Part shown: piece after piece, positions 43,309 through 62,905 of the stretch
How positions within the stretch are numbered: the stretch's first letter is position 1
How the letters are laid out: each line of letters begins with the position of its first letter
Source: Xenopus tropicalis
Taxonomy: Eukaryota; Chordata; Amphibia; Anura; Pipidae
Direction of reading: 5' to 3'
Length of the DNA: 64,000 nucleotides
Assembly: GCF_000004195.4 (NCBI RefSeq)
Contig: NC_030685.2
Coordinates: 57,102,048-57,166,047, forward strand
The notes under the pieces: model-generated
Told to the model about the DNA's origin: nothing
What the model saw: the letters and a program-made list of their open reading frames with translations, nothing else
Database searches by the model: none
Position numbers and translations under genes: made by a program

Positions 43309-43650
43309 GTTACTGCTCCTGGGCAAACTTAGTGCTTTTTATTACATATGGGGGAAAGGGCAGGTAGCATTTACTAGTCACTTGTAAACATCTTATTGGT
43401 TGCTATAGGTTACTGCTCCTAGGCAAACTTAGTGCCTTTTATTACATATGGGGGAAAGGGCAGGTAGCATTTACTAGTCACTTGTAAACATCTTATTGGT
43501 TGCTATAGGTTACTGCTCCTAGGCAAACTTAGTGCCTTTTATTACATATGGGGGAAAAAGCAGGTAGCATTTATTGGTCACTTGTAAACATCTTATTGGT
43601 TGCTATGGGGTTACATCTAAACAAACACTGTGCCTTTTGTTGTATATGAT
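43309..43650. repeat. 100-bp tandem repeat, about 3.4 copies
   Basis: Units start at 43309, 43409 and 43509 with GTTACTGCTCCT, giving an exact 100-bp period for the first two. The third is 101 bp and a degenerate fourth starts at 43610. Each unit includes TTATTACATATGGGGGAAA and ends TCTTATTGGTTGCTAT. Units 1-3 are nearly identical. A diverged relative occurs near 22495-22555. The array lies just downstream of the exon 17 splice donor in transcript direction. Confidence 0.92.
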
Positions 43651-43691: not shown

Positions 43692-43824
43692 CTCTGTTTC
43701 AAGGAATCTGCGTAAAGCTCTCTTCTTTTTGATGCTTTTCCTTCTAATGTAAACGGCAAAGGTCAATGCCATGATAACTATTATGAAGAGCCCTCCAATA
43801 ACACTGGCTGCGATGAGAGGAGTC
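43692..43824 (-). CDS. erbb4: erbb4 exon 17: transmembrane segment and basic stop-transfer
   Basis: The minus strand gives an acceptor (ttacatggcag, with a weak pyrimidine tract), a 133-bp exon and a gtaaga donor. The first base completes an Arg codon begun in either JM exon, then 44 codons follow in frame. They begin [11 protein letters not shown], continue with the hydrophobic [15 protein letters not shown], then the basic [14 protein letters not shown], and end LETE. This is the single ErbB4 membrane span. The basic cluster serves as stop-transfer and, in the released intracellular domain, as part of a nuclear localisation signal. Mammals read FAVYV where this gene has FAVYI at the inner membrane face, near the gamma-secretase site. 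The 133-bp length equals the mammalian exon. Confidence 0.97.
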
Positions 43825-44048
43825 CTGCCATGTAAAGTCAGATACATTAAAATACAGAAATAAAAGCGGACTCAGGTAACAATGAAAGTGCCAAAGAAAA
43901 TCATGCAAGGAAAATCTGGGAATGGGCAAGTACCACACAGAGGTAAGATACATCTTTAAAATGCCAGTGATAGGGATTTAACTTGGCCTGGTCAGGATTT
44001 TCCCTATGCATGCATGATGGCATAGGAAGAAGCTTGATATACAAGGCC

Positions 44049-55759: not shown

Positions 55760-55825
55760 CTAGCATGTTGAGGTAGGGTGAGAGGGTCGTTCCACAAGCA
55801 GTCATGGGAGGTAGGGTTGTTACAC
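55760..55825 (-). CDS. erbb4: erbb4 exon 16: cleavable juxtamembrane exon JM-a
   Basis: On the minus strand a gattgcctgcag acceptor precedes a 66-bp exon, followed by a gtaaca donor. With phase 2 at both ends it reads CNNPTSHDC, then LWNDPL, then TLPQHA and the start of an Arg codon finished by exon 17. Human JM-a has the same CN-PTSHDC and TLPQHAR flanks, but the central part is IYYPWTGHS. The frog exon is therefore three residues shorter (66 versus 75 bp). JM-a is the isoform whose stalk is cut by ADAM17/TACE, allowing gamma-secretase to release the intracellular domain. The exon is an alternative to JM-b at 55944-55988. Assignment is firm from the flanking motifs, splice phase and gene position. 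Confidence 0.93.
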
Positions 55826-55943
55826 CTGCAGGCAATCACAGAACACAGTAGGGGGGTCACTGACATGCACAGACATGCAGCATCATGCTCTCTAGCGCCA
55901 CATAGGGGACAGGAGCAAACATTCCTTAGCTGCTAGCAAGTAC
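55826..55943 (-). other. erbb4: 118-bp intron separating JM-b and JM-a
   Basis: It starts with the JM-b donor gtacttgc and ends with the JM-a acceptor tgcctgcag. It contains a T-poor stretch before the JM-a acceptor, so that acceptor looks weak. Its short length may disfavour splicing JM-b directly to JM-a. Confidence 0.9.
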
Positions 55944-55988
55944 CTATCTATGATTCCAATGCAGTCCTTCAAACGTGGTCCTCTACAC
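55944..55988 (-). CDS. erbb4: erbb4 alternative juxtamembrane exon JM-b (exon 15b)
   Basis: The minus strand has a strong acceptor (a run of nine T then AG), a 45-bp exon with phase 2 at both ends, and a gtactt donor. Reading in phase from exon 15 it encodes CRGPRLKDCIGIID, then an Arg codon completed by exon 17. Human JM-b reads CIGSSIEDCIGLMD in the same place and is also 45 bp, so length, the Cys pair and the DCIG..D core agree. JM-b lacks the metalloprotease site, so this isoform is expected to resist shedding. A second AG six bases into the exon (GTGTAG) would give an in-frame form two residues shorter. Charge differs from human (Arg-Arg-Lys here, Glu in human). Confidence 0.92.
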
Positions 55989-58900
55989 CTAAAAAAAAAT
56001 TTGGGAACAGGCAGAGTGAAACAAAAGTAAAAAGTAAAGGAGAAAAGAAGGGAGATAATCTTGATTATAATAGATGTACTTTTAAAGAAGGAGGACATTT
56101 AATAAAGTAGTGATAACATGAAGGGCCAATAAGAATGGGCAGTAGGAAAATGAATGTGATAGTAGATAGGTCAATGCTTTTACAGTTCTTATTGGCTGAA
56201 AGATGCAGGCCTAAGGAAAAAGAGTACAAAAAAGAAACATATTAACGCTTAAACAGAAAGCACACACAGCATGGATAAAAACATTATATATAAACCCCAG
56301 TGCAGATGCACCACTGGCTGAATGTGTTGATGAACTAGAGATTACCTCAGCCACTGGGGTTTAATAACAGCACCAGTGACAAAGGTTATACACCACAAAT
56401 TAGACAAAAAGATGAAAAAACAAGATCAAAATCTATTACTGAACAGATTTTATCAGTATGTATTTCTGACACTTTCCCCCTAGCAATGCTATTACTTTTC
56501 CAAGGGGTTAACTAGACCAAGCCATGGTTGAGGTGCAGTTGAAATAATTAGAGTGTTTGGTTTCCAGACTGAAACAAAAAATAGTCACCAAAGTGCTTCC
56601 CGCCCCTCCACAGCTGGTATCAGCCTTACAGGGACAGCCTTCACCTGCACCCGCCAGGAGTCTTGTCACTGCCAAGGTCTTGTTTTTCTGCCCCTCTCTG
56701 TTTCTCCGGTTTGCAAAACACAGAGCCCATGATTATTACACAGAATAAGAAAAAGCACATCAGAGCGTATCTCCATTAGAATGGCAGTTTAATGGCCAAT
56801 GCACAATCATTTTCTCTTTCTTTTCTATTCAAAACCCCAAGAGTTTGAAATCAGAATTGGCAACAGCAGTGCAGACTGATGCAGACCTGTCTTTTTCAAA
56901 TGAAATAAAGTAAGGGCATTCAAATGGATAGGAATTTCTGAAAGCCAAACAACTTGTATTCAACGGCAAAGCAAGGCTTAAGATTTCACACGCTGGACGT
57001 AGAAAACACCTGGACTTTTCTTTTCACTTCCCACCAGAAGCAGTTCAGCCAGGTGCTCATTAAGCTCGTGTTGCTTAGAATTTTGTTTGCACTTTTTAAG
57101 CTGCTCCGAATAATGTTCACATGATTAAAGAGATGGAAGGTTATAAAATGAGCTTCTTCTGGTCCTTTTGACATCCAAAAGATAAGATACAGTAGTTCGT
57201 ATAAGAGGTTGGTTTGCTGGTGGTTGCAGGCTTATATTAATTGTTACTTGTGTTTGGAAGCAAGTTTCCTTCTGAGAAAAAAATTCCATCTGAAACAGTG
57301 AGTTTAATCAGTGCTTTTCTCTTGTCATTCATGTCAACAGAAATAAAAGAATCCCTTGCAACAACACATTTCTTTTAAATTGGAAAGGAAGAACTTAATG
57401 GAGAACTAAAGCTTAGAAAATAATTAGGCTAGAAATGCTGCACATTATAATTTGGGCTTCTGTAACTGCCCAAGGCAACCACAGCCCTTTAGCTGGGAAG
57501 ATCTGTGACTCCAAAGATGCCCCAGTAGCTCCCCATCTTCTTTTCTACTGATTTACTACACATGCTCTTAGCAGCTGTCAGTTGCAAGATCTTACAAATA
57601 TTTAGTACCCTTATATATGTAAAAGTATACTTAGCAATTAATTCAGATTCACATTGCATGGCAGCTCAGAAACCAATGCATTCTTCTTCTAGTATTTAAT
57701 AATCAGCCCAGTAGCATCAGCCTCTGTGACAGACAAACCTCATTTTCTGCTTGATGATTAGTGACAACCCCTAAAGCTGGCCATACATGCACCAATAGTA
57801 TTGTACGAAACCTTGTTTCATACTATATTGTGTGCATGTATGGTGGATTCATGAGATGACCAATGGTCGCAGGAAAGATTTAATTGAAAGATGTATGGTC
57901 ACCGTATGCTTAGCTTCTCAGTAGCTGCCATGAACACATTGAGCATGTGCAGTGTTACTGGCACTAGGGTCTCCACCCGACTGGTATTTGACTAGCCAGC
58001 AATGTACTTACTGGTAAATTTTAAAGGGTGGCAACCCTACCTATATACACATCCCATTCCTGACCCTGTCTGCTGCTAGTCACCCCTTAGAAGTAGAGGC
58101 CTGCCCCTGCTCATCAAGCCCATTTCCCTGCCTCATCCACCCTCCACATTACATCATCTTCCCTCCCCCAAATGACCTCATTCTCTGCCCCTGACACGAA
58201 CGCCACTATTAAAAAAAGGTGGCAACCTTATATATATATATAATACACAAGAGCCATGAATACCCTGTAAATGATATAATTAGAAATGGAGCTTAGTGAT
58301 GCCATTAGTTATAATCAGTGCATAGTGACGTAATTTCACGTCACATGACTCACTGAAACTTGTGTATTATAATAAATAATGTACCCCCTCTTGTAAAATA
58401 TGAGAATATTAGTACCATGACCTGGAACTCAGCCTCATGCAACTCCTTGGTGACTTATAATATCTCTATATTTTACAACAATAATACAACATTTCTAGCC
58501 ATATTCTTTTTTAACCTTTAGTTTTTCTTTATTTGTAAATCTTTCTGAATACATTCCATCTCTTCTCCTTGGTACTGTGCTTGTTATCAGCTCTCCTGCT
58601 TCTACTTAGCAAGCAGAAACTACAAAAAATATATTTTAGATAGGGAAAATAAGTTGGGCTTTGGCTTCCGAAGCTAAATTGACCCTTTAGATTTTGGGTC
58701 TTCTTTAAAATGATTTTATACATGTGTTGCGGATACATTTCTTAACAAAAGCTTATAAATGATTTATATGTTTTGGTATAAATTGCATGAGCCCTAACTA
58801 CATGACATGGCATGATAAATTTACTTAGTAAAATGGGATGCTTAAAATACAAATTGTAAAACTGTAGGCCAGAACAACCCCCCCTTACTTTCTTTACTAT

Positions 58901-62750: not shown

Positions 62751-62905
62751 CCATCTGTACAGTTAGGGTGGCAAGGATGGCATTCTTTGTCCTCATCTGC
62801 GTATTTAAAGATGAAGCTGTTTGCCCCTTGAAGACCTTCTGGACATTTTTCCACGCAGTTGGGCCCATCCTTAAAGTTTGAGCATTTTGTGCAGTGATCT
62901 GGGCC
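62751..62905 (-). CDS. erbb4: erbb4 exon 15: end of extracellular domain IV
   Basis: On the minus strand a ttattttcag acceptor is followed by a 155-bp exon that starts in phase 0, ends in phase 2 and has a gtaagg donor. It begins [20 protein letters not shown], continues with [17 protein letters not shown] and ends [12 protein letters not shown]. This is the cysteine-rich (furin-like) membrane-proximal part of the extracellular region. The spacing C-T-K-C, N-C-V-E-K-C and C-H-P-C-H-P-N-C is diagnostic for the ErbB family, and [11 protein letters not shown] fits ERBB4. The length equals the mammalian exon. The last two bases begin a Gly codon that either JM-b or JM-a completes. The longest open frame over this exon is in a different frame and is not the protein. 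Confidence 0.97.

Follow-up and report, generated by a model that had tools for sequence, protein, structure and literature searches.

The juxtamembrane (JM) choice of the receptor ErbB4 decides between signalling at the cell surface and release of a nuclear fragment, and it differs between heart, brain, and kidney. Does a frog have the same pair of alternative exons, and what would set the choice between them? We analysed a window (the whole stretch of DNA under study, 64,000 nt or 64 kb) from Xenopus tropicalis.

The exon pair in the frog

The minus strand of the window carries seven ErbB4 exons, namely exon 15, JM-b, JM-a, and exons 17–20 (Table 1). Exons 15 and 17–20 are 82–97% identical to human ErbB4 (tblastn), and the Pfam domains of the gene are domain IV, TM_ErbB1, and kinase. 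A UniRef protein from X. tropicalis (A0A6I8SHJ1, or P0221) contains the peptides of all seven exons, letter for letter and in order. The initial annotation had named the gene as a frog ErbB4 with JM-b and JM-a exons, and this is supported by homology and by the public protein; judged by these, the locus is the alternative JM exon pair of X. tropicalis ErbB4. The exons themselves are not new, as they are already public, joined to each other in that one protein. (An ErbB-like kinase match, P0032, is filed in nr as Listeria monocytogenes and is probably animal contamination or a mislabel.)

Table 1. Features of the ErbB4 locus, by position in the window
Feature	Position	Strand	Remarks
Exon 15, constitutive, 155 nt	62751..62905	(-)	upstream partner of the JM choice; tblastn 88% identity to human ErbB4; identical in P0221
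Long pyrimidine tract before JM-b	55989..56063	(-)	ends in a T run; 79% C+T over 75 nt
JM-b exon, micro-exon, 45 nt	55944..55988	(-)	peptide CRGPRLKDCIGIID + R split codon; phase checked
Intron between JM-b and JM-a, 118 nt	55826..55943	(-)
Extra GCAUG	55884..55888	(-)	intron +56, 10 nt further upstream
First UGCAUG (RBFOX motif)	55874..55879	(-)	intron +65
Second UGCAUG	55864..55869	(-)	intron +75
JM-a exon, 66 nt	55760..55825	(-)	peptide CNNPTSHDCLWNDPLTLPQHA + R split codon
Exon 17, transmembrane (TM) exon, 133 nt	43692..43824	(-)	downstream partner of the choice; donor GAG/gtaaga
Exon 18	41967-41845	(-)
Exon 19	38829-38731	(-)
Exon 20	15622-15437	(-)

The geometry first described for the pair is exact in its coordinates, lengths (45, 118, and 66 nt), AG/GT borders, and common phase, and the frame through exons 15–20 does stay open with JM-b alone, JM-a alone, both, or neither. 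JM-b precedes JM-a, both lie between exon 15 and the TM exon, and their phase is identical. The human and mouse ERBB4 counterparts, exons 15b (JM-b) and 16 (JM-a), belong to the same gene and have the same order, and their JM-b is also 45 nt long. In human, JM-b lies 121 nt upstream of a 75-nt exon 16, compared to 118 nt and 66 nt in the frog, and the two JM exons are described as mutually exclusive (PMC2944867).

Scored against the peptide of human JM-b, the frog JM-b exon reaches 47. The next best score is 10 among 216 open cassettes of AG, 45 nt, and GT (102 on the minus strand and 114 on the plus strand) and 29 among 57,228 open 14-residue peptides, and none of 20,000 shuffles of the human peptide reached 47. 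JM-a matches human JM-a by tblastn (E = 7e-5, 64% over 25 columns), and it has SHDC and LPQHAR as in human and mouse. The stop-to-stop frames that contain JM-b and JM-a have only 68 and 58 codons and are unremarkable in the list of open reading frames, so ORF length would miss both exons. To this extent the remark that they are missed by ORF-length annotation is right, but both are present in the public protein.

Gene models of other frogs have JM-b alone (Mixophyes and Eleutherodactylus) or JM-a alone (Ascaphus), and an X. laevis gene model (P0273) skips both. Six gene models from five genera join both exons (Xenopus, Chrysemys, Ara, Pelodiscus twice, and Polyodon). The joined form (JM-d) and the form that skips both (JM-c) are already named as rare human isoforms. 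If the frog JM-b/JM-a intron were retained, translation would stop 16 codons past JM-b, ahead of the membrane segment. Such retention would give a soluble ErbB4 ectodomain, as would the turtle (P0268) and vole (P0271) models that stop there. In a set of bird gene models (P0259-P0263, P0267, P0269, P0270, P0291, and P0292, from owls, pheasant, woodcreeper, white-eye, and tit), another stretch replaces the JM exons. It ends in LIL-I/V-AR before the TM segment and is probably an upstream extension of the TM exon; either the models lack exons and this is an artefact, or birds have a third JM form. Near the TM exon of the frog, a 100-bp tandem repeat (three copies, 96% match, window 43309-43614) ends about 78 nt downstream of that exon's donor on the gene's strand.

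Candidate control of the choice by RBFOX

By analogy with known targets, the most likely explanation, and one that we consider probable, is that the choice between JM-b and JM-a is set by RBFOX acting on twin UGCAUG motifs between the exons. Both motifs lie near JM-b in its downstream intron, as is characteristic of RBFOX-regulated micro-exons (+65 and +75), and no other TGCATG pair with a spacing of exactly 10 nt occurs on either strand of the 64 kb. At least two TGCATG occur in 0.24% of 118-nt windows across both strands of the 64 kb, and at least three GCATG in 0.09%. When a chain trained on the intron itself serves as the background, P is 0.012 for three GCATG and 0.034 for two TGCATG. As the motif was spotted by eye and then run in a panel of 14 patterns, these window and chain figures are after the fact. 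Two further TGCATG are on the minus strand at window positions 44014 and 43907, which puts them about 190 and 83 nt before the TM exon.

The turtle (Natator, P0268) and vole (Myodes, P0271) gene models read through the JM-b donor, and the final 26 and 30 residues thus look like translated JM-b/JM-a intron. In the turtle tail, the only TGCATG pair with 10-nt spacing that the codons permit is at +58/68, and in the vole tail it is at +59/69, compared to +65/75 in the frog. Thus the pair is codon-compatible in both of the two gene models whose tails reach that far into the intron; this is compatibility of codons rather than DNA that was read, and the tails fix four or five of the six bases of each site. 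Among control peptides from the window (overlapping samples), 8/6664 and 9/5386 permit such a pair anywhere, and none at that place. The GCAUG at +56 in the frog has no counterpart that the turtle or vole tail would permit. We suggest that the motif pair may be kept from frog to rodent. What is new here is the twin UGCAUG, 10 nt apart, between JM-b and JM-a, with which the turtle and vole peptides are compatible. A 9-mer that the frog intron shares with a mouse genotyping primer (PMC9568506) was taken as chance because 0.4% of 6084 windows do as well and because the turtle and vole tails are incompatible with it anywhere.

The donors of the pair are the weakest of the seven exons (JM-b −1.2 and JM-a 0.6, versus 3.2 to 7.1 for the five constitutive exons). 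The initial annotation had contrasted a long T run in the JM-b acceptor with a pyrimidine-poor JM-a acceptor. The T run is real, but the second half of the contrast is not borne out: JM-a has 11 pyrimidines among the 17 positions from −20 to −4, the same as exons 15 and 20, and its acceptor scores higher than that of JM-b (5.5 versus 3.7). By composition only, the tract before JM-b is of the PTBP1 type, and the 150 nt before JM-b contain YTTYTY nine times, which 0.9% of windows match. We also considered whether RNA structure holds the exons apart and saw none: shuffled sequences were at least as stable in 137 of 200 cases for the intron (z = 0.58) and in 189 of 200 for the whole region (z = 1.56).

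We propose that UGCAUG downstream of JM-b, a micro-exon with a weak donor, would let RBFOX promote its inclusion, while the same motifs, being upstream of JM-a, would let RBFOX repress JM-a, so both effects would favour JM-b. RBFOX-rich tissues (neurons, heart, and muscle) would then make JM-b, and JM-a would be used where RBFOX is low and PTBP1 occupies the long pyrimidine tract before JM-b. For the frog, we infer the action of both factors as well as the tissue pattern. Among alternative micro-exons of at most 51 nt, TGCATG is reported as the one motif highly overrepresented downstream, with pyrimidine-rich motifs upstream; splice sites are weaker in RBFOX-enhanced micro-exons, RBFOX bound downstream is known to enhance inclusion, and pyrimidine tracts are described for PTBP1-repressed micro-exons (PMC4317164). 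Frog JM-b shares with these exons its size below 51 nt, the TGCATG downstream, the pyrimidines upstream, and the weak donor. However, RBFOX-regulated micro-exons tend toward long flanking introns, with a 3′ median of 2.2 kb (PMC4317164), whereas the 3′ intron of frog JM-b is only 118 nt and leads to a second, coupled exon, which argues against a close fit; RBFOX binding here is putative.

In FGFR2, Fox2 is reported to repress the downstream one of two exclusive exons via UGCAUG between them (PMC2880598). FGFR2 thus resembles ErbB4 in that exclusive exons (IIIb/IIIc in FGFR2) of a receptor kinase flank an intron with UGCAUG. In contrast to ErbB4, whose upstream exon is the heart form in mouse, Fox2 works on FGFR2 together with ESRP and favours the epithelial exon; we claim no homology between the exons. 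As for tissues, JM-b is described as the sole form in mouse heart and JM-a as the sole form in kidney, with both in cerebellum (PMC9471956). RBFOX proteins are said to be exclusive to neurons, heart, and muscle (PMC4317164), but Fox2 is called broadly expressed (PMC2880598), so a tissue-specific choice would need RBFOX1/3 or differences in level. In the literature that we searched, one review alone joins ErbB4, RBFOX, and UGCAUG: the part available to us states that FOX2, TIAR, and HuB regulate ErbB4 JMa in lung cells and does not give the direction (PMC10835012). Related searches of that literature turned up no other source for the JM-b/JM-a pair. The twin UGCAUG is a named motif and gives a direct test of what sets the JM choice.

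The gene models do not all sit easily with control by RBFOX, as the public X. tropicalis model joins both exons and the X. laevis model skips both. Taken at face value, the former could mean that X. tropicalis always includes both exons and has no switch. We consider this very unlikely, given the JM-b-only and JM-a-only models of other frogs and the X. laevis model with neither (these are gene models rather than reads) and given that JM-d is rare in human. We give an equally low probability to the opposite idea of steric exclusion, by which the 118-nt intron would be too short to splice and the exons could not join. The intron is similarly short in human, where the exons are called mutually exclusive (PMC2944867), but six gene models in five genera join both exons and JM-d is a named human isoform. 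Also, the sole branch-like match in the intron places its A 31 nt before JM-a and about 87 nt from the JM-b donor. A distance of about 87 nt between donor and branch A is ordinarily room enough for splicing.

A more serious alternative, which we nevertheless think improbable, is that the exon pair works but another factor decides (PTBP1 alone on the tract upstream of JM-b, MBNL on YGCY, ESRP, TIAR, or HuB), with UGCAUG playing a minor part. The repeated YTTYTY before JM-b is consistent with this, and so is the intron itself for MBNL, as it contains YGCY five times (1.6% of windows) and is also high in TGC (0.8%). The naming of TIAR and HuB besides FOX2 in the review (PMC10835012) and the broad expression of Fox2 (PMC2880598) point the same way. 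However, another factor would leave the compatibility of the turtle and vole tails with UGCAUG at a fixed spacing without explanation. That the exons are chance resemblances or are dead has next to no probability: the gap between a score of 47 and 10 or 29, the identity with the public protein, and the presence of similar exons in many vertebrates all count against it, and we found nothing in its favour. Control by RBFOX through the twin UGCAUG is thus the explanation that we prefer.

Shedding and the JM-a stalk

The initial annotation had stated that the exon choice decides whether the receptor is shed and signals to the nucleus. Homology supports this, but the human scissile pair is absent from Xenopus JM-a, so cleavage in the frog is putative. 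In human JM-a, TACE is reported to cut between His651 and Ser652 (PMC3382207). JM-a has 22 residues in Xenopus and Ascaphus, versus 25 in the other 18 JM-a proteins, and in the tblastn alignment to human JM-a the three-residue gap falls in the stretch of the TACE site. New here, by comparison of sequences, is that both frog JM-a proteins fall three residues short and that the cleavage pair mapped in human is absent from Xenopus. At the TACE site, where human JM-a has Gly-His/Ser, turtles, birds, and a skink have Arg-Gln-Ser.

The stalk from the last cysteine to the membrane has 13 residues in frog JM-a, 16 in human JM-a, and 6 in JM-b. A stalk of 13 residues should make the frog receptor sheddable, as in mammals, and one of 6 should not. 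In mouse, H641N;S642P is reported to have abolished E4ICD in transfected cells, whereas E4ICD persisted in vivo (PMC9568506), so the cleavage pair counts in cultured cells but not in the animal. We therefore infer that frog JM-a is probably still shed.

Age of the pair and residue 631

The conservation of the pair in a frog had been taken to show that the switch predates the split of amphibians and mammals. This is supported but too modest, as JM-a also occurs in an elephant shark and in non-teleost ray-finned fishes. Stein and Staros (2006) place the long form in tetrapods, with X. tropicalis in their ErbB4 set; which tetrapods is not stated in the part available to us (PMC1618406). We recognised JM-a in 20 of the 314 proteins compared, including those of the elephant shark Callorhinchus milii (P0258), Huso (P0250), Polyodon (P0306, joined with JM-b), and Erpetoichthys (P0255 and P0256); JM-b is present in the whale shark Rhincodon (P0145). 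With JM-a in the elephant shark and in three genera of non-teleost ray-finned fishes, the pair would be older than tetrapods, against the 2006 reading, and it seems to have existed before cartilaginous and bony fishes diverged. The lack of JM-a in teleosts looks like a loss: there is none among the best 120 of 532 matches listed, from 90%-identity clusters that hide isoforms.

We considered a tandem origin of the two exons and rejected it. In 15 JM-b and 10 JM-a sequences (hand-picked, one per genus), the first nine residues of JM-b and JM-a agree beyond column shuffles (28/362,880, or 14/5040 with the cysteines fixed), and the JM-a of the elephant shark is closer to shark JM-b than human or frog JM-a is. 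However, C-x-G-P-xxx-D-C recurs in other ErbB cysteine modules, so the likeness may be shared structure.

According to Vaparanta et al. (2022), STAT5a-type receptors are marked by a hydrogen-bond donor with an acceptor next to it and a glycine close by (His631, Asp632, and Gly627); donor and acceptor are at 631-632, 3–4 residues from glycine 627 (PMC9663514). JM-a is reported to stay partly active when H631 is replaced by R, K, Q, or N and to lose its activity with H631E (PMC9663514). We matched 159 of the 314 proteins as JM-b; the other 155 are fragments, other ErbBs, JM-a only, intron-derived, or unmatched. All 15 amniote proteins (10 genera) have Glu at residue 631 of JM-b, and none of the 144 others does. 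Positions 631-632 are Glu-Asp in amniotes, including human JM-b (PMC2944867), and in the 144 non-amniote proteins they are Gln-Asp (139), Lys-Asp (4, from three frogs and the whale shark), or Arg-Asp (1). Unlike amniote JM-b, frog JM-b has Lys-Asp, in Gly-Pro-Arg-Leu-Lys-Asp, which by sequence fits the STAT5a-type motif as published; frog JM-a has His-Asp, but Asn for Gly627. Under the published rule, and with Glu631 only in amniotes, non-amniote JM-b would carry a STAT5a-type motif, and the STAT5a/STAT5b split between the isoforms is predicted to be an amniote addition, which is new here. The Glu631 pattern ties the published rule to one datable amino-acid change, so a single point mutation could be used to test when the JM switch gained its second function.

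Other receptors bear on the rule. ErbB3 has Gln-Asp at 631-632, as does most non-amniote JM-b, and is reported to activate STAT5a (PMC9663514). ErbB2 is also reported as a STAT5a activator (PMC9663514), with Asp-Lys-Gly here and without the glycine, so the rule is wider than two fixed positions. Against our prediction, both motifs are reported to be conserved across 16 taxonomic categories (84% similarity); also, no JM-b substitution described changed STAT5b activation, and Gln631 appears in JM-b only in combination with D632L (PMC9663514). Of the 20 JM-a proteins, 16 retain the donor His (as His-Asp in 15, from tetrapods, and as His-Asn in the elephant shark). Residue 631 is Ala or Gly in the remaining four (Huso, Polyodon, and Erpetoichthys), which by the rule would be a loss and complicates any simple history.

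With that complication in mind, we tentatively outline a stepwise history, which is possible but for which we would not claim even odds. The JM-b/JM-a pair would be as old as jawed vertebrates, given elephant shark JM-a and whale shark JM-b, and JM-a would have been lost on the way to teleosts. Early JM-b would also have had a STAT5a-type motif, so that the switch controlled shedding only. Glu631 would then have arisen in the JM-b exon in the amniote stem and removed that motif from JM-b, so that one splicing decision came to include a choice between STAT5a and STAT5b as well. On this view, frogs would still have the earlier switch, which governs shedding alone, and their JM-a stalk would have been shortened.
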